From Rhodopseudomonas palustris (GTDB taxonomy: Bacteria; Pseudomonadota; Alphaproteobacteria; Rhizobiales; Xanthobacteraceae), in NCBI RefSeq assembly GCF_034479375.1, contig NZ_CP140155.1, positions 248,001 through 312,000 of the forward strand: 64,000 nucleotides of DNA, written 5' to 3'. This document shows, piece after piece, positions 5,654 to 13,040 of the stretch. The first letter of the stretch is position 1, and each line of letters opens with the position of its first letter. A program made the position numbers and the translations under genes. Under the pieces are notes generated by a model. That model worked only from the letters and a program-made list of their open reading frames with translations, had not been told where the DNA came from and ran no database searches.

Positions 5654-7996
5654 TCAGAATGTGTGCGTGAGCCGGGCGGTGAAATTGCGGCCGGGCTCCA
5701 GCAGCGGATTGTACATCGACTGGGCGTAGGACCTGTTCACGTAGGTCGCCGCGCTCACATAGGAGGTGTCGAAGATGTTCTGCAGGCTGAGATGCACCTT
5801 GGTGTCGCCGAGGCGGCGCGAGATCAGCACGCCGAGATCGAACGACGCGTAGATGCTCGGGACCGCATAGCCGCCGGTCGGGAACTCCTCGGTGGGGCTG
5901 ATGCGGGTCTTTGCTCCGGCCCAGTCGACCGCCGCGCCCAGCGAGTAGCCGGAGCCGAGCGGCGCGTATTGCACCCCGACACGTCCCTTCCACGGCGCGA
6001 TGAACGGCAGCGGCGCGCCTGTGTCGGTGTTGGTCGCCTGCAGCCAGGCGGCGTTGCCGTACAGGTTGAACGACTGCGTCGCCTGCCAGCGCCACTCGGC
6101 CTCGACGCCGTTCACCGTGGCGTGGCCGACGTTCTGCCGCTGGGTCATCGAGGAGCCGTTGTATTTGACGAACACCGTCTGCAGGAAGTTCGCGTAGTGG
6201 CTGTCGAACGCCGTCACCTTGACGGTGGCGGTCGGGAAGTTGAGCTGGAAGCCGCCCTCGTAGGTGAGGCCGGTCTCCGGCTTCAGTTCCGGATTCGGAA
6301 TCGTGGTGGCCGAGAAGGCGAACAGCTCGGAATTGGTCGGATAGCGATACGAGGTGCCGACCGAGGCGAGCAGGTCGAGAATCGGCGTCACGTGGACGGT
6401 GGCGCCGAAGCTGCCGGTCGGCGCGGTGGCGGTGACGTCCGCGTTCCGTCGAAGCACCGCGAGCGCGTTCGCGGAGCTGACAGGAGATAGCTCGGACGTC
6501 GTGTTGAACCAGTCGTACCGGCCGCCGGCCGACAGCGTCAGCAGCTTGAGCGGTGTCCACTCGTGCAGCATGAAGGCGCCGACATTGGCCTGGGTGTTGT
6601 CCGGCGCGGTCTGCGTTTCGGGCGAGATCGTCGTGGTCGTAGCCGTTTGCCGCACCGACCACGACGTGCTGCCTGGGCGCCATTCCTGGAAGCCGTCGAT
6701 CCCGAACGTCGTCTTCACGAGCCCCCACGGCGCCGGCTCCCACGGGATCACACCCTGGGCCCGGCCGCCGATCACCAGGGGGCCGCCGACGTGACTGACC
6801 GAACTGGTGACGACCCCTGCGGTGGCGGTGTTCACGGTCGCGACCTTGGTGTCGAAATAGTTGGCGTAGAACGAGCCTTCGACGTGCTGAACCAACTGAT
6901 CGGTGAAGTCGCCGGCGTAGGACAATTTCGCCATGTGCACCTGGTTCGGCTGCTGGCGGACCTGCATGTAAGGCCAGCCCGGGGCCCCGCCGACGCCGCC
7001 GGCGCGGCCGTCCTCTTCCCAATAGTCGCGCAGCGTCAGTTCGAAACGCTGGTTGGAGGTCGGCGACCAGCCCAGCCGCAGATTGCCGCCGATGCTCTCG
7101 TAGTCGCTGTTGAGCGCCGCGCCGCTCGGCGTGTGGTAGTTGCCGCCCTTGCGATAGCTGACGCCGCCGAGCACGTCGAAGCCCAGGCCCGCGGCCTGCG
7201 CCCATTCATAGGTGCTGAAACCGTTGTCGACCGAACTGTAGCCGGCCGAGAAGCCGCCGTGCGCGATCCGCCAGGGCCCGAACGGATCGACCTCCGGTCG
7301 CCGCGTGACGACGTTGACCAGGCCGGTCATCGCCTCCGATCCGTAGACGACCGAGCCGGGTCCGCGAATCACCTCGACGCGCTCGATCTCCTCGGGCGCG
7401 AAGTAATTGAGCTGCAACGTGTTGCGGCCGCGGAAGCGGTCGCCGTCGATGTACATCGGCGAGCGCCAATTGTTGGACGAGAAGCCGCGCAGATAGATCT
7501 GACCGCCGATGCCGCCGGCGCGGGCGATCGACACGCCGGGAACGTTCTGGAGGATGTCGAGCAGGCTGGTCGGGCTGGTCTGCTCGATCTGAGCGCGATC
7601 GACGACCGTGATGCTCTGCTGCGCCGGATGCGGAATGCCGGGCTCCGGCAGCTTGCCGCCCATCGGCTTGAGAGAATTGTCGTTGCTCGTGTCGGAGCGG
7701 ACCGCCGCGGCCTGGGGAGTCTGTTCCGGCTTGGGAGCACGTGCCGACGTTCGCCGCGTCGCCTGACCCGTGTTCGAACGTGACGCACGCTGCGGCCGCG
7801 ATGAACTCGCCGCTTCGACGCGCACCTCCGGCAAGACGTGGCGGCCGCGCTCCGATGACGTGTCCGCGCTTTGAGCCCGAGTGTCGACGCTCGATCCGGC
7901 CGTGATCACGCAGGCCAGCGCGACGCTCAATCCGCAGCACGTCGACGCGAGAAATCTGCGTCTCCCGGATTCCCACGTGAATGTTCTTTCAATCAT
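5654..7996 (-). CDS. TonB-dependent outer-membrane receptor
   Basis: This 780-residue protein has a signal peptide (about residues 1-42, ending near TRAQ). A TonB-box-like LPEVRVEA at 55-62 follows. Next come an unusually long Ser/Pro/Arg-rich linker (about 63-125), a plug domain (about 125-235, with ITVVDRAQIEQT, PGVSI, YLRGF, MYIDG and VEVIRGPGSVVYGSEAMTGLVNV) and a beta-barrel ending in a terminal Phe. Such receptors import siderophores, haem, cobalamin or other metal complexes using the proton motive force. It is divergent from a periplasmic-binding-protein ABC transporter, so the two very likely handle the same ligand. The ligand cannot be read from sequence. Confidence 0.9.
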   Translation of the reverse strand: MIERTFTWESGRRRFLASTCCGLSVALACVITAGSSVDTRAQSADTSSERGRHVLPEVRVEAASSSRPQRASRSNTGQATRRTSARAPKPEQTPQAAAVRSDTSNDNSLKPMGGKLPEPGIPHPAQQSITVVDRAQIEQTSPTSLLDILQNVPGVSIARAGGIGGQIYLRGFSSNNWRSPMYIDGDRFRGRNTLQLNYFAPEEIERVEVIRGPGSVVYGSEAMTGLVNVVTRRPEVDPFGPWRIAHGGFSAGYSSVDNGFSTYEWAQAAGLGFDVLGGVSYRKGGNYHTPSGAALNSDYESIGGNLRLGWSPTSNQRFELTLRDYWEEDGRAGGVGGAPGWPYMQVRQQPNQVHMAKLSYAGDFTDQLVQHVEGSFYANYFDTKVATVNTATAGVVTSSVSHVGGPLVIGGRAQGVIPWEPAPWGLVKTTFGIDGFQEWRPGSTSWSVRQTATTTTISPETQTAPDNTQANVGAFMLHEWTPLKLLTLSAGGRYDWFNTTSELSPVSSANALAVLRRNADVTATAPTGSFGATVHVTPILDLLASVGTSYRYPTNSELFAFSATTIPNPELKPETGLTYEGGFQLNFPTATVKVTAFDSHYANFLQTVFVKYNGSSMTQRQNVGHATVNGVEAEWRWQATQSFNLYGNAAWLQATNTDTGAPLPFIAPWKGRVGVQYAPLGSGYSLGAAVDWAGAKTRISPTEEFPTGGYAVPSIYASFDLGVLISRRLGDTKVHLSLQNIFDTSYVSAATYVNRSYAQSMYNPLLEPGRNFTARLTHTF

Positions 7997-8054
7997 CAGC
8001 TACCTCCCCCGACTCTCGATCTGTGAGTAAGGTCCTTATCGTCTCACAATGTCG

Positions 8055-8117
8055 TCCACCACCATCTCCACGTTAGCTTTCGGGTCATCCACCATCATCC
8101 GCGCGTAAGCTTCGAGG
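8055..8117. promoter_or_regulatory. Imperfect 30-base direct repeats in the divergent promoter region
   Basis: Two 30-base copies start with TCCACCA at 8055 and 8088, and both carry CGT(T/A)AGCTT near their ends. About 22 of 30 positions agree. The 33-base period is about three helical turns, so bound proteins would sit on the same face of DNA. The repeats lie between the start of the TonB receptor (7996, minus) and the transporter operon (8326, plus), and a shared regulator binding here would control both. The regulator is not in the window. Confidence 0.45.
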
Positions 8118-8325
8118 CATTACAATAACAACCCGTGCTGCGGGGGTGCGATTAGCAGGGCGCACAACCAAATCAGTTCATGCGTTGAACGATTCTATTC
8201 TCCGACCCGCACTTCCAGCCCGGGGGCATTGTTTTGCTTTTGCGTTTCCTCACCGCGGTCCCCTATGTAAGCGTCATGTGTGCCGCCACGCGGCTCATTG
8301 CTTGCGAGTCGAGGTCGTCGAACTC

Positions 8326-9420
8326 ATGCCGCCATTGTTGCGTTGGAGAACACGGGCGATTGCGGTGGCGATCGATGTCGTCGTTGCATTCGTCGCTTTC
8401 GGTCCGGTGCACGCGACCGATCTGACCGATCAGCGCGGCCGGACCGTCGCCGTCACGACGCCGGCGCAGCGCGTGGTGTTCCTGCCGATGCCGGCGCCGT
8501 CGACCTATATGGCGATCGACCGCTCGTCCGCGCATGTCGCCGGCATGAACCCGGCCTCGGCGACCGCGATGCAGTCCGGCATTCTCGGCCGCATCTTCCC
8601 GTCCTTCGAGAGGATCGCGACCGGCATCACGCGTGGTGCCGGCGTGGTGCCGAACGTCGAGGCGATCATGGCCCTGCATCCCGACGCCGTGCTGCAGTGG
8701 GCGACCTCGGGTGACGAGCCGATCGCGATGCTCGACCGCGCCGGACTGACCGTGCTGGGACTGCGCTACGGCGGTCAGGACGACGTCGATGGCGCCATTC
8801 TGATGATGGGCCGGCTCGCCGGCCAGGAAACGCGCGCCGCCGCGATCGTCGCGCGCCAGCGGCAGCGCCAGCAAGCGCTCGCTGCCGCGCTCGGCGGCTT
8901 GGCCGACACCGAGCGGCCTCGCGTCCTGCATCTCACGCGCGCGTCGGATTCGTTCTCCGCCGCCGGGCGCGATTCCTATTCGGATTTCGTGATCAGGACC
9001 GCAGGTGGCCGCAACGCGGCCGCGGAGATCGGCGGCAGTCGCAGCGTGACGCTCGAGCAGTTGCTGGTCTGGAATCCCGACGTCATCCTGCTCGGCAATT
9101 TCGACACCGCGATGCCGTCCGACCTCTACGGCGATCCGCGTCTGCAGGGCATCAAGGCCGTGCGGGAGCGGCGGGTTTTCCGCGTGCCGCTCGGCGGCTA
9201 TCGCTGGGATCCGCCGAGTCACGAATCGGCGCTCGCCTGGGTCTGGCTCGCCGACCTGCTGCATCCCGACCGCGTCGCCATCGATTTGCGCGCCGAGATG
9301 CGTGACTGGTACGCATTTCTCTACGGCCACCCGCTCGTCGATGCCGAGATCGACGCCATCCTGCATGCGCGGCAGAATGGCGGATCGGCCGGCTACGCGC
9401 GGTTCGCGGCGTCGCGATGA
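8326..9420 (+). CDS. Periplasmic metal/metallophore-binding protein (TroA/FepB-like)
   Basis: This 364-residue protein has a signal peptide (residues 1-30, cleavage after VHA). The mature part begins TDLTDQRGRTVAV, the usual start of cluster A-II binding proteins for siderophores, cobalamin or oxyanions (FepB, BtuF, MolA). Further family marks are NVEAIMALHPDAVL, WNPDVILLGNF and the C-terminal GGYRWDPPSHESALAWVWLADLLHP. The frame is open to 8146, but ATG 8326 places the signal peptide at the N terminus and a GAGG lies just upstream. It overlaps the permease gene by ATGA. Its partner receptor is encoded divergently. The substrate is not predictable; iron chelates are likeliest, and molybdate or tungstate are possible. 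Confidence 0.85.
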   Translation: MPPLLRWRTRAIAVAIDVVVAFVAFGPVHATDLTDQRGRTVAVTTPAQRVVFLPMPAPSTYMAIDRSSAHVAGMNPASATAMQSGILGRIFPSFERIATGITRGAGVVPNVEAIMALHPDAVLQWATSGDEPIAMLDRAGLTVLGLRYGGQDDVDGAILMMGRLAGQETRAAAIVARQRQRQQALAAALGGLADTERPRVLHLTRASDSFSAAGRDSYSDFVIRTAGGRNAAAEIGGSRSVTLEQLLVWNPDVILLGNFDTAMPSDLYGDPRLQGIKAVRERRVFRVPLGGYRWDPPSHESALAWVWLADLLHPDRVAIDLRAEMRDWYAFLYGHPLVDAEIDAILHARQNGGSAGYARFAASR

Positions 9421-10502
9421 CTACGCTCGACGCTGCCGTCGCCACCCGCCATGGCGGTCCCGTCGTCGCGATCGCCGCACTCGCAGCGCTGCCGGTCGCG
9501 ACGGCGCTGCTGTGCTTGTCGGCCGGTCGTTATCAGGTGCCGGCCGCGCATGTGTTCGGCATCCTGCTCCACGAATTGCTCGCCCGCGTCGGTCTCGTCC
9601 CAGCCGACTGGCTCCCGTCCGGATGGGCTGCAGTGAGTTGGACGCCGACCGAGCGGATCGTCATCACCACGGTGCGGCTGCCGCGGATTCTGATGGCCGG
9701 CATCGCCGGGGCCGGGCTCGCGCTCTCCGGCGCGGTGTTGCAGGGGATCTTCCGTAATCCGCTGGTCGGCCCGCAGACGATCGGTGTGGCGTCCGGCGCC
9801 TCGCTCGGCGGCGTCGTCGCCATTCTGCTGTTCGGCTTCGGCCTGCCGGTTCACCTCGGAGCCTTCGCAGGCGCGGCGCTTGCGCTCGCCGCGGTGCTGC
9901 TCGTCCATCGAGGCGACGGCGTCTCACCGGTGCTGACGCTGGTGCTCGCCGGCGTCGTGGTCGGTTCGTTTTGCGGCGCGCTGGTCGGGTTCGTCACCTT
10001 CATCGCCGATCCCGAGGTGAAGCTGCCCGGCATCGTGTTCTGGCTGCTCGGCAGTTTCGCGGCGGCGAGCTGGCCGAACCTCGCTCTCCTCGCCGCTTGC
10101 ACCGCAGTCGGCGGCAGCGTGATGTTGGCGATGCGCTGGCGTGTCAATGTGCTGTCACTCGGCGATGAGGAAGCGCTCTCGCTCGGCGTCGATCCGCGGC
10201 GCGATCGGGTGATCCTGCTCGCCGCGACTTGCCTTGCGATTTCGGCCCAGGTGGCGGTCTCGGGCGCGATCGGCTGGGTCGGCCTCGTCATCCCCAATCT
10301 CGCCCGCATGCTGGTCGGCGCCGATCACCGTCGGCTGCTGCCGGTGTCGGCCGTGGCGGGCGCAGCCTTCCTGATGGCGGCAGACACGTTGGCCCGCGAC
10401 CTTACGGCGGCGGAGATCCCGGTCGGCATCGTCACGGCGATCGTCGGCACGCCGGTGTTCGCCTGGCTGCTCCGCCGCCACGCGCGAGGAGCCGGCGCAT
10501 GA
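9417..10502 (+). CDS. FecCD/BtuC-type ABC transporter permease
   Basis: This 361-residue integral membrane protein is of the FecCD family, with about ten hydrophobic helices. Family signatures are RLPRILMAGIAGAGLALSGAVLQGIFRNPLVGPQTIGVASGASLGG and, near the C terminus, GAIGWVGLVIPNLARMLVGADHRRLLPVSAVAGAAFL (quoted in parts: RLPRILMAGI, LSGAVLQGIFRNPL, GWVGLVIPNLARM). It should form a homodimeric channel. It overlaps the binding-protein gene by four bases and the ATPase gene by four bases, so all three are translationally coupled. A GATPTERI-like loop after helix 1 (WTPTERIVITTVRL) is normal for the family. Confidence 0.93.
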   Translation: MTTLDAAVATRHGGPVVAIAALAALPVATALLCLSAGRYQVPAAHVFGILLHELLARVGLVPADWLPSGWAAVSWTPTERIVITTVRLPRILMAGIAGAGLALSGAVLQGIFRNPLVGPQTIGVASGASLGGVVAILLFGFGLPVHLGAFAGAALALAAVLLVHRGDGVSPVLTLVLAGVVVGSFCGALVGFVTFIADPEVKLPGIVFWLLGSFAAASWPNLALLAACTAVGGSVMLAMRWRVNVLSLGDEEALSLGVDPRRDRVILLAATCLAISAQVAVSGAIGWVGLVIPNLARMLVGADHRRLLPVSAVAGAAFLMAADTLARDLTAAEIPVGIVTAIVGTPVFAWLLRRHARGAGA

Positions 10503-11272
10503 TCCGAGTCGAGAGCGTCGGGCATTGGTTTCGGCCGGAGCAATGGCTGTTCCGCGATCTCTCCTTCGCGGTCGCGGAGGGCGAGGCGACGGCGATTCTC
10601 GGGCCCAACGGCTGCGGCAAGACCACGCTGTTGCGCGCGATGGGCGCGACGCTGACGCTGAAGCAGGGCCGGATCGCCGTCGACGGCGTCGTCGGCGTGG
10701 TGCCGCAAGCCCTGCGCGCCGACGTCGCCTACCGGGTGATCGACATGGTGCTGCTCGGCCGCAGTCGCTATCTCGGCCGCTTCGGCGCGCCCGGCCGGCG
10801 CGATCTCGCCCGCGCGGAGGAGTGCCTCGCCGCGGTCGGCCTCGCCGATTTCGCCGAGCGTCGCTACGATCGGCTGAGCGGCGGCCAGCGCCAGCTCGTG
10901 CTGTTCGCCCGTGCGCTGGCGAGCGACTGCCGCGTGCTACTCCTCGACGAGCCGGCCTCGGCGCTCGATCTCGCCAATCAGGGTGTGGTGCTGCGGCTGA
11001 TCCGGCGGCTGGTGCGCGACGACGGCATGACCGTGGTGTTCACCACCCATCATCCCGATCACGCGCTGGCGGTGGCCGACAAGGTGCTGATGATGGCGGG
11101 AACGCCGGTGTTCGGCCCCGCGGCGACGACGCTCGACGAGGCCAATCTGGGCCGTCTCTACGGCGTGCCCGTGCGCCGTATCACGGTCGTCGCGGACGGC
11201 GAGACGATCGAGGCGACCGTGCCGGTGCACCGGATGGTGGCCGCCGACCCAGCGGGCGCGCCGCGATCATGA
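10499..11272 (+). CDS. ABC transporter ATPase, FecE/BtuD type
   Basis: This 257-residue ATPase has Walker A GPNGCGKTT (35-43), signature LSGGQRQ (126-132), Walker B VLLLDEP (146-152) and the switch histidine in VFTTHHPDHAL. It completes the binding protein-permease-ATPase operon. ATG 10499 overlaps the permease stop (ATGA); longer in-frame extensions would lie inside the permease gene. Its 3' end overlaps by six bases the 3' end of a convergent gene. Confidence 0.93.
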   Translation: MIRVESVGHWFRPEQWLFRDLSFAVAEGEATAILGPNGCGKTTLLRAMGATLTLKQGRIAVDGVVGVVPQALRADVAYRVIDMVLLGRSRYLGRFGAPGRRDLARAEECLAAVGLADFAERRYDRLSGGQRQLVLFARALASDCRVLLLDEPASALDLANQGVVLRLIRRLVRDDGMTVVFTTHHPDHALAVADKVLMMAGTPVFGPAATTLDEANLGRLYGVPVRRITVVADGETIEATVPVHRMVAADPAGAPRS

Positions 11273-11896
11273 TCGCGCAGTTTCCTGCGCCCAGCGCAGG
11301 AAGCCGTCGAGGAATCGCGTCGTCGCCGGCATAAAGCGGCTGCCGTGGTGATAGAACGGGTCGAGTGTCGAGATGATCATCCTGCCTGGCGTCGTCACCC
11401 GGTCGTCGTAAAGCAGCGCGCCGCCGTGGTCGCGGCCGTCGCGGTCGGCGGGCACGGTGACGAGCGGCACCGCGCCCTCGGGCGGAAACAGCACGCCGTG
11501 GATGTGCCAGACCGTCGAGTCCGGCGCGATGTAGCCGAACATTTCGTGTTCGGGCGCGACGAACTGATGCGGCGGCTTCTGCGCAGGGTCCAGCCACCAC
11601 CAGAAATTGGTCGGGCGCGGCGCGCTGCGCACACCCGGCGCCCAGGTCTCCGCCTCGCATTCGCCGAGCACCACGAGCGTTCGCCCGCGTGCGAGGAAGT
11701 CCATCAGCAGCGGCCGATGCCGACGCAACAGATCGGGGTTCAGCCGGTCCGGCACGATCAGCAGTGTCGGCTCGGCGAGGTCGTCGGCGGTCAACGCCGG
11801 TGCATAGATCACTTGGTCGAAACGATCGCGGAAACGCTCCCCAAAGATCGTCTCGTGATGATAGTAAGTACCACCGTCGAGCACTGCCACGGTCAT
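11267..11896 (-). CDS. Class I glutamine-amidotransferase-like protein (unknown role)
   Basis: I do not recognise a characterised family for this 209-residue protein. Its alternating beta-alpha pattern (TVAVLDGG, TLLIVPDRL, RTLVVLGECEAE, GGALLYDDR, GRMIISTLDPFYHHG) looks like a class I GATase/ThuA-type flavodoxin-like fold. C80 in VVLGECEAE sits where the GATase nucleophile elbow would be. WHIHGVLFPP and the C-terminal TTRFLDGFLRW are further landmarks. It looks distantly related to the gene upstream of it. It is last in a three-gene minus-strand unit, and its ATG overlaps the upstream stop (ATGA). A role with the adjacent uptake system is inferred only from position. Confidence 0.7.
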   Translation of the reverse strand: MTVAVLDGGTYYHHETIFGERFRDRFDQVIYAPALTADDLAEPTLLIVPDRLNPDLLRRHRPLLMDFLARGRTLVVLGECEAETWAPGVRSAPRPTNFWWWLDPAQKPPHQFVAPEHEMFGYIAPDSTVWHIHGVLFPPEGAVPLVTVPADRDGRDHGGALLYDDRVTTPGRMIISTLDPFYHHGSRFMPATTRFLDGFLRWAQETARS

Positions 11897-12498
11897 CGGC
11901 GCGCCTCCACCAGCCAATTGATGAGCTGTGGCAGCAGGCGCCGCGTGGTGTCGTCGCCACCGAAGCTCCACAGATCGTTGCCGCCGTGCAGCAGCACGGC
12001 GCCGCGTCCGAGCGGATAGATGAAGTCGAGCGGGCGATGTGCCGGGCCGAGCGTGTGGATCACAATTGCGTCCTTCGGAGGCGCATGCCAGGCATGACCA
12101 TAGAAGCCTGCGACGCCGCGTCGGAAGGTGAGGTCGTCGAGCGCAACGCCGTCCCAGATCGGATGCGCCGTGGCGCGCGATATTGTCAGGTCGGCGATGC
12201 CGCCACCGTCCAGTGGCTGCACCGGGCCGAGGCCGGCCATGAACGGGTGTGCGACATGGCCGCTGATCGCGATGCGGCCGCCGGCCGTCACGTGGTCGTC
12301 GAGCAGCCCCGCATTGGCCTTCAGGAAACGCTGGTCCATGTGCATGCCGATAAGCAGCGCATCTGCGCCGGCGAGCAGGGCCGCGTCGAGCGCGTAGAGA
12401 TCGACGTCGCGGACGGTGCAGTCGAGACCGGCGAGCCGTTCGGCCCAGGCCGCCGACGAGGTCTTGTGGCCGCAGGAGAATCGAATGACGGTTTTCAT
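11893..12498 (-). CDS. GATase/ThuA-like protein (unknown role)
   Basis: This 201-residue protein has the same general fold pattern as the gene after it: ADALLIGMHMD, GGRIAISGHVAHPF, PIWDGV and a C-terminal HGGNDLWSFGGDDTTRRLLPQLINWL. The HPIWDGV and HGGNDLW pieces recall ThuA-like domains. At the position of the nucleophile elbow it has G80-H81 instead of a cysteine, so ordinary amidotransferase chemistry is unlikely. No signal peptide is seen. ATG 12498 lies 14 bases after the upstream gene. Sequence resemblance to the downstream gene suggests an ancient duplication. Confidence 0.68.
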   Translation of the reverse strand: MKTVIRFSCGHKTSSAAWAERLAGLDCTVRDVDLYALDAALLAGADALLIGMHMDQRFLKANAGLLDDHVTAGGRIAISGHVAHPFMAGLGPVQPLDGGGIADLTISRATAHPIWDGVALDDLTFRRGVAGFYGHAWHAPPKDAIVIHTLGPAHRPLDFIYPLGRGAVLLHGGNDLWSFGGDDTTRRLLPQLINWLVEARR

Positions 12499-12512
12499 CG
12501 CGCGCCTACCGA

Positions 12513-13040
12513 TCAAAGCCGATCGAACAGCGCGTCCGGCGAAGCGGCCAGAACATCGTCGGCAACGCATCGCTTCAGCGCCGACAACTCGACGTTCTCT
12601 TCGTCGCTGCGAGCGCCGCCGCGGGCGATCAGTTCGAAGAACCGCTCCGGCACCACGCCGGCGCGTAGCGCGGCGCCGACGCTGCGATCACCTGCCGACA
12701 GCCGCCAGCTATACGACATGTCCACGCCTGGACACAGCCGCGCCGCTGGCAGCGTCCGGTCGATCGTGTAGACGCCGCGCGTCACCGCGCGGGTGACGAA
12801 CTCGAAGGTATCGCGCACGCCGGGGCCCGGATGACCGCTGACCACGACGAGGTCGGCGCGGCGCGGCGGCCGCTGCGGCGACAACGCCGGCAGCATCAGG
12901 CGCAGCGCCTGAAACGTCACCGCCAGCATCGCCAGTGCGGCCTGTCCGTGATACGCGGCGACCGCGTCGTAGGGGATTTGGATGAGATCCTCTTCGCCTT
13001 CCACGGTGAGCGTGGGGCGTGTCTCGACGGTTATGGTCAT
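12513..13040 (-). CDS. FmdE-like protein lacking the usual Cys/His residues
   Basis: This 175-residue protein aligns by eye with the formylmethanofuran dehydrogenase subunit E (FmdE) domain. YHGQAALAMLAVTFQALR takes the place of the canonical HGH-containing helix. GVRDTFEFVTRAVTRGVYTID takes the place of the canonical C-x-x-D-x-x-Q...T-G-C-T...G-K-G strand. SYSWRLSAGDRSVGAALR matches the following beta pair. The canonical cysteines are gone and HGH reads H31-G32-Q33, so metal binding may be altered. FmdE-domain proteins often lie beside metal-uptake ABC systems. It is first in the three-gene minus-strand unit. The family assignment is tentative. Confidence 0.6.
   Translation of the reverse strand: MTITVETRPTLTVEGEEDLIQIPYDAVAAYHGQAALAMLAVTFQALRLMLPALSPQRPPRRADLVVVSGHPGPGVRDTFEFVTRAVTRGVYTIDRTLPAARLCPGVDMSYSWRLSAGDRSVGAALRAGVVPERFFELIARGGARSDEENVELSALKRCVADDVLAASPDALFDRL

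Follow-up and report, generated by a model that had tools for sequence, protein, structure and literature searches.

A seven-gene uptake island of Rhodopseudomonas palustris with a GATase-like protein pair tied to ABC importers, a probable system for an iron complex

A 64,000 nucleotide stretch of the Rhodopseudomonas palustris genome (assembly GCF_034479375.1, contig NZ_CP140155.1, forward-strand positions 248,001 to 312,000; here termed the window) contains seven genes in which a TonB-dependent receptor and an ATP-binding cassette (ABC) importer stand beside three small genes, one for an FmdE-like protein and two for proteins, A and B, that resemble class I glutamine amidotransferases (GATases). 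The seven-gene set is a real unit. Its constant core is the ABC importer with A and B; the FmdE-like protein and the receptor are optional, and the importer family varies. On balance we lean towards the window's set being an accessory island for uptake of an iron complex under Irr iron control, with the GATase-like pair and the FmdE-like protein handling the imported complex in the cytoplasm.

The core became apparent on sampling by B, which was done because the first sample had been chosen by FmdE. Within the order, 20 of 297 genomes, the window's own included, were positive, and 20 chromosomal stretches cover 21 of the 22 places beyond the window; with 15 examined of the 32 plasmid records that carry B, this gave 35 loci, which are not independent since several are from close relatives and one (L112) is the Hansschlegelia locus of the first sample. 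At every one of the 35, B has as neighbours an ABC importer and A, the latter sometimes fused to it. The importer, typed by record annotation and by tblastn with representatives from the same loci, belongs to the FecCD/BtuCD family at 22 loci, to Nik/Dpp at 11 (including Paenibacillus, L109), to NitT/SsuABC at one (Chelatococcus, L101) and to Fbp at one (the haloarchaeon Natribaculum, L107). An FmdE-like gene is found at 15 of these loci and an adjacent TonB receptor at only 4, for which reason the receptor was rejected as an obligatory part. The initial annotation had taken receptor, transporter and three small genes as the set; what is actually constant is narrower, the importer and the GATase-like pair. 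On the Paenibacillus replicon, beyond Proteobacteria, the FmdE-A-B set is accompanied by a Nik/Dpp-type importer (L109:6857-8576), and at L119 tandem duplicate A/B pairs lie beside one Nik/Dpp-type importer and one FmdE-like gene.

The first sample, from a search of named genomes with an FmdE alignment, also comprised 35 loci. Genes for A, B, binding protein, permease and ATPase, in reshuffled order and direction, are all present at 24 of the 25 closest (L013-L037), which are alpha- and betaproteobacterial (Rhodopseudomonas, Rhodoplanes, Bradyrhizobium, Hansschlegelia, Bosea, Rhodovarius, Achromobacter, Corticibacter, Bordetella and a few metagenome-assembled genomes, MAGs), and this bears out the earlier proposal that small genes and transporter form one functional unit. 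The exception is a Streptosporangiales MAG (L035) whose contig stops a few bases downstream of FmdE, the set being unseen on the 10 kb upstream. The receptor is present at 22 of the 24; L023 and L026, where it is missing, lie on contigs 4.9 and 5.6 kb long. In two further alphaproteobacterial loci (L059, L060) the set is present and the receptor is unseen within the 17–18 kb examined. At the ten farthest loci (L038-L047, FmdE identity 27–35%) A and B are missing without exception, and of seven other genomes of the class with an FmdE match the pair is present in two. Far FmdE relatives thus sit elsewhere, which speaks against the unit as far as FmdE alone is concerned and led to its rejection as a constant part; the expectation that the small genes do not mostly occur away from transporters holds for the pair, beside an importer at all B-sampled loci. 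The island is patchy even locally, a close FmdE gene being found in two of seven same-genus genomes of the family sample (own genome counted), and the closest named relative of the FmdE-like protein, 90% identical, is from Rhodopseudomonas.

In the window, part of a genome that is a single 5.3 Mb contig, the receptor gene diverges from an operon for binding protein, permease and ATPase, and this operon converges with one for the FmdE-like protein and the two GATase-like proteins, each where the initial annotation had placed it (Table 1). Neighbouring genes within each operon overlap or nearly abut, the two operons converge with a 6-base overlap, and about 330 bases of divergent promoter separate the receptor from the start of the binding protein gene. 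A signal peptide was discerned by eye in the binding protein; none was seen by eye in A, B or the FmdE-like protein, which are presumably cytoplasmic. With Pfam and NCBIfam at E 0.001 there was no match for any of the three small proteins, and since an Rfam scan of the whole window returned no family at gathering score, no known riboswitch family is present in it.

Table 1. Genes of the island and Irr/ICE-like boxes (ICE, iron control element; PWM, position weight matrix), in window coordinates
Feature	Position	Strand	Basis or remark
TonB-dependent outer-membrane receptor, 780 aa	5654..7996	-	PF00593 153.8 bits, PF07715 87.5 bits
Periplasmic binding protein Peripla_BP_2, 364 aa	8326..9420	+	PF01497 80.9 bits (search from next codon)
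FecCD/BtuC-type permease, 361 aa	9417..10502	+	PF01032 271 bits
ABC ATPase, 257 aa	10499..11272	+	PF00005 91.8 bits
GATase-like protein B, 209 aa	11267..11896	-	alignment, AlphaFold model and fold, neighbours
GATase-like protein A, 201 aa	11893..12498	-	alignment, homology to B, A/B fusions elsewhere
FmdE-like protein, 175 aa	12513..13040	-	alignment, AlphaFold model and fold
Irr/ICE-like box GTTGAACGATTCTAT	8184..8198		in the receptor–binding protein interval; no site in the 64 kb window has a higher PWM score
Second Irr/ICE-like box TTCGAGGCATTACAA	8111..8125		PWM score 9.5, ranking second within the divergent promoter
Weaker Irr/ICE-like box TTAGAATAGTCGGAA	13214..13228		precedes the FmdE operon; score reached in 0 of 300 shuffles

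The pointer to iron is in the promoters. When 15 divergent receptor/transporter promoters were searched for a palindrome by Gibbs sampling, TTnGAAnnnTTCnAA came out de novo with a score of 230.8, against 170.5 ± 3.9 and at most 175.4 in 20 dinucleotide-shuffled sets; on a repeat run 230.8 was attained by one of eight starts. Because shuffling does away with relatedness, and Rhodopseudomonas and Rhodoplanes together supply seven of the 15 promoters, the search was repeated with eight promoters of seven lineages (one each from Rhodopseudomonas, Rhodoplanes, Hansschlegelia, Bosea, Rhodovarius and the MAG L025, and two from Bradyrhizobium), and the same motif emerged, scoring 118.0, whereas 30 shuffled sets averaged 95.6 ± 2.7 and did not exceed 104.6. 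The motif resembles the ICE of Irr. When consensus patterns were compared over 16 promoters, that of ICE stood out, with 72 mismatches versus 93.5 ± 1.9 in mononucleotide shuffles; the NikR, ModE, RirA, FNR and Mnt patterns were within one standard deviation (SD) of the shuffles or on the wrong side of them, and enrichment of the Fur and Mur patterns was below two SD. The window's highest-scoring box is itself among the 15 sites that form the PWM. It is the second box, with aligned copies in Rhodopseudomonas relatives, that is the window's site in the one-per-lineage search. Sites on the FmdE side occur at −171 to −187 in L013, L014, L015 and L037 (p 0.02 to 0.08). The same kind of box is thus present at the receptor/transporter promoter and, more weakly, at the FmdE operon, consistent with the shared regulation that the initial proposal of one island called for.

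For scoring outside the training set, 30 of the 35 B-sampled loci were used (L107-L111 were left out) and, L127 being too short, 29 regions remained. A box at p ≤ 0.05 was found in 11 when judged against shuffles (1.5 expected) and in 10 when judged against windows of the same locus; among the 11, L112 is the training locus fetched again and L099 and L100 are near identical. These boxes precede Nik/Dpp (L114, L115, L118, L122) and NitT (L101) modules too.

The exact TTnGAAnnnTTCnAA pattern has six sites in the genome. Four precede genes for an MbfA homologue (Rubrerythrin plus VIT1), a TonB receptor, a PepSY_TM protein and a fumarase, and some of these four are between divergent genes; the other two have no clear target. 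The genome also encodes an Irr-like Fur-family protein (L135), with a Fur domain and a GCPWHD motif, the heme motif of Irr, along with two other Fur-family proteins. An ICE-type box in the promoter and an Irr-like protein in the genome, the two marks by which membership of an Irr regulon was judged, are therefore both present. According to PMC3413700, mbfA is a verified direct target of Irr in Rhodobacter, binding of Irr to blr7895 and bfr has been shown in Bradyrhizobium, and Irr acts as a repressor when iron is depleted in the species studied up to then, while playing no major role in the iron-dependent expression of Rhodobacter mbfA. Binding of Irr at the island's boxes, and the direction of its control, are predictions from sequence.

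Several observations count against iron control by Irr. A Zur-like pattern is also enriched in the 16 promoters (85 versus 94.4 ± 3.0 mismatches, about three SD), and a shorter Zur pattern is so by just over two SD. A reversed control pattern still has three genome sites to the six of the exact one. The window's best box departs from the core at two positions, its FmdE-side box is only the sixth best in the window with four higher sites outside the module, and of 15 FmdE upstream regions, the window's included, only five reach p ≤ 0.05. No box at that threshold was found in 18 of the 29 out-of-sample regions, the betaproteobacterial loci have no clear iron box, and the title of one paper names positive as well as negative control in Bradyrhizobium. 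The Rhizobium-type fusion loci (L128-L131) are without a box when judged against shuffles.

For the betaproteobacteria, a Fur box was considered and could not be established. Of the seven loci, L030 and L033 have the candidate, AATAAGATTGATTCTTATT, in full and L036 has it almost in full, while L029, L031 and L032 keep one arm and L034 is without it. With mismatches to the E. coli consensus at 8 of its 19 positions it does not outdo the best site in L034, and it amounts to no more than a hint. All seven (L029-L034 and L036) have a Crp/Fnr-like gene that diverges from the module (Pfam was checked in L033), adjoining the binding protein gene or, in L034, that of the receptor, and in six loci its first codons overlap the conserved TTGACAATAGTCAT.

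A and B are paralogous (hhalign E 5.8e-10). They are fused in the order A-B as one protein in Agrobacterium vitis (L104), with a single open reading frame or annotated gene spanning both in L059 and L099, and in the order B-A as one protein in Rhizobium etli (L097), with close relatives of this B-A protein at L106, L108 and L128-L131 (45–87% identity). Since fusion has occurred in both orders, a physical complex of A and B is likely, and they probably work as a heterodimer. The AlphaFold model of B and its fold comparison give a GATase-1/ThuA fold, in agreement with the sequence-based name and with the GATase-1-like fold of class I glutamine amidotransferases. However, the catalytic cysteine conserved in that class is lacking: alignments of 26 A and 24 B sequences contain no invariant or nearly invariant cysteine, so neither should act as a glutaminase. 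Invariant in B are N-x-WWW, WH-x-HG and LDPxxHxGSxFMP, and in A, DQ, R-x-GV-x-GF and, close to the C-terminus, H-x-G. With the ThuA profile (PF06283) a single one of the 26 A sequences was listed, at E 0.16, and none of the B sequences; some relatives of A and B weakly match DUF4159 or DUF4350 (best E 8.5e-5 and 1.4e-4), families of unknown function, and a PDB sequence-profile search with A and B gave no meaningful match.

For the FmdE-like protein, with its motifs HGQAALAM and GHPGPGVRD, assignment comes from the fold. A Foldseek search of the PDB with its AlphaFold model has FmdE structures in each of the first four rows (best E 6e-5; the next row is at E 0.38), and against FmdE structures, 2glz, 2gvi and 3d00 included, the TM-score by query length is 0.49–0.58. 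The PF02663 profile leaves the window's protein unmatched and matches 9 of 35 relatives weakly (best E 1.5e-4); a PDB sequence-profile search had no meaningful match. That FmdE-domain proteins often neighbour metal transporters, as the initial annotation stated, was already in print: most FmdE genes adjoin those of metal-ion transporters, as reported by Axelrod et al. 2010 (PMC2954224). At L045, L046 and L047 a remote FmdE-like gene is near HypE-like and HypB-like (hydrogenase-maturation-like) and NiCoT-like permease genes, named by eye; this neighbourhood suggests a nickel role for another FmdE branch.

The receptor is below the cut-off of every NCBIfam model among the best 25 of 34 listed; nearest is TIGR01785 (TonB heme receptor) at 230.4 bits, the cut-off being 316.85. 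Cut-offs of the BtuB, BtuC and BtuF equivalogs are likewise unreached (receptor 131 of 600 bits, permease 204 of 334 and 255 of 461, binding protein 23 of 234), and with scores below the cut-offs, B12 and heme receptor identities were rejected. The PDB profile scores of the binding protein are 280 bits for 4ovk, 134 for 4hn9, 116 for 4pag and 113 for 3psa (MolA, HI_1472). By profile it is nearer MolA than heme (60) or B12 (54) binders, although three of these structures score above MolA. Set against the molybdenum or tungsten (Mo/W) of the earlier MolA analogy, iron is the more likely metal in view of the Irr-type box and the iron islands of methanotrophs. In those islands, on plasmids of Methylocystis and Methylosinus, the set has siderophore receptor, PepSY, and HemP or FecR/sigma genes as neighbours. 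A further hint of iron is a ferritin-family gene that comes after the FmdE-like gene at L124.

In the scheme that we favour, iron acting via Irr would control the island. The receptor would carry an iron-bearing compound (a xenosiderophore, another organic chelate or a heme-like molecule) across the outer membrane, and the binding protein and BtuCD-type transporter would move it into the cytoplasm, where the A/B heterodimer, helped by the FmdE-like protein, would receive it and free or transfer the iron. Its parts differ in strength. Linkage of the genes, kinship and fusion of A and B, and the promoter box are observations. Very probably, what the receptor and transporter import is a chelate or some other large compound that bears iron; that the metal is iron we infer; and least certain is that the pair and the FmdE-like protein act chemically on the imported complex. 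As the pair is constant across importers of differing fold, its role is most likely in serving the cargo once imported, and not one transporter fold. A further possibility, put forward tentatively, is that A and B are a new class of cytoplasmic accessory complex, with a metal-dependent active site in a GATase fold. Such a complex would be portable among ABC importers of no fewer than four unrelated families (FecCD, Nik/Dpp, NitT, Fbp), spread over Proteobacteria, Bacillota and Halobacteria, and by dismantling imported iron complexes, sometimes with an FmdE partner, would supply a general and hitherto missing step of their assimilation.

Were the cargo a chelate of another metal (Mo/W, nickel, cobalt or zinc), the small proteins would be metallochaperones or insertion factors and the box would be read by another Fur-family protein, of which the genome has two. 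This is unlikely, though the Zur-pattern enrichment, the nearness of the binding protein to MolA, the Nik/Dpp-type importers that accompany the pair, the hydrogenase-maturation-like surroundings of the remote FmdE genes (L045-L047) and the general proximity of FmdE genes to metal-ion transporters in the accessible part of PMC2954224 all favour it. However, the box in this genome precedes the MbfA homologue and iron-uptake genes, enrichment of the ICE pattern is far above that of the NikR, ModE and Mur patterns, and the methanotroph plasmid islands are ones of iron.

Somewhat more doubtful still is an organic nutrient as cargo, the pair and FmdE then being catabolic enzymes and iron regulation secondary, the nutrient itself binding iron. 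The GATase/ThuA fold is common among enzymes acting on sugars and amides, and organic molecules are the usual cargo of NitT- and Dpp-type importers. In addition, at L099, L103, L104 and L110 a BtuCD-type transporter and FmdE-like gene are followed by carbon-phosphorus (C-P) lyase genes from phnG onward. This linked, related set is on plasmids of Labrenzia, Martelella and A. vitis, with A/B just upstream in the first two, and the C-P lyase genes after it suggest phosphonate, a hint against plain iron as cargo. However, neither A nor B has a conserved cysteine nucleophile, clustering of the neighbourhoods of close loci revealed no shared catabolic gene that recurs, and the iron-type box spans importer types. 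That the pair and FmdE instead regulate or gate the importer, by trans-inhibition or substrate sensing, would fit its constant linkage to importers of unrelated folds and its lack of an obvious active site, but is very improbable, as a single regulator pair is unlikely to bind four unrelated importer families and the strongly conserved His, Trp and Asp positions resemble, by eye, a ligand site.

Two kinds of neighbour are recorded here for themselves. Downstream of the receptor in Rhodoplanes tepidamans are a NifH-family gene (L017:17540-18346) and a nitrogenase component 1-type gene (L065:15612-16817), both by Pfam; the component 1-type gene is also present in Rhodoplanes elegans (L018, L066), and nitrogenase-like genes occur at these two Rhodoplanes loci only. 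A gene for NnrS is near NitT-type ABC genes beside the FmdE-like gene of L057 (NnrS and permease by eye) and, as annotated, near the module on Martelella plasmids (L100, L110).

To our knowledge, iron release from imported chelates is known for few compounds. The constancy of the pair across unrelated importers, often with an iron-type promoter, offers a concrete entry point to it, and that the pair travels with several kinds of pump points to a missing step in the cellular handling of imported iron. A possible role is also offered for FmdE proteins, whose proximity to metal transporters was noted in 2010 (PMC2954224), and families now labelled hypothetical gain a testable assignment. Neither the A/B pair nor the seven-gene set was found described in the open-access literature, most subscription journals lying outside that coverage; the one paper found there to mention both FmdE and siderophores treats formate dehydrogenases. 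While TonB/ABC metal uptake and the FmdE-transporter link are known, the accessory A/B pair appears undescribed and could prove to be a new class.

In its receptor, binding protein, FecCD permease and ATPase families the island is like the TonB/BtuFCD-type systems for siderophores, heme and B12, and differs in that its receptor, permease and binding protein are below all the listed model cut-offs and in having three extra, cytoplasmic-looking gene products. With the MolBC-A molybdate/tungstate importer of Haemophilus it shares a binding protein related to MolA; the iron-type promoter box, TonB receptor and GATase-like pair set it apart. From ThuA-like and class I GATase-like proteins, A and B are distinguished by the absence of a conserved cysteine and of a ThuA match at threshold, and by being an obligate-looking pair tied to ABC importers. 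The FmdE family PF02663, as treated in the accessible part of PMC2954224, is similar in fold and kind of neighbour, whereas the window's protein has no PF02663 match at E 0.001 and the GATase pair and TonB receptor go unmentioned in that part. In its palindromic box, one site of which precedes an MbfA homologue, the window's genome is like the Irr regulon of Rhizobiales; the island's seven genes, unnamed in the available part of the published regulon description, would be an addition to it.

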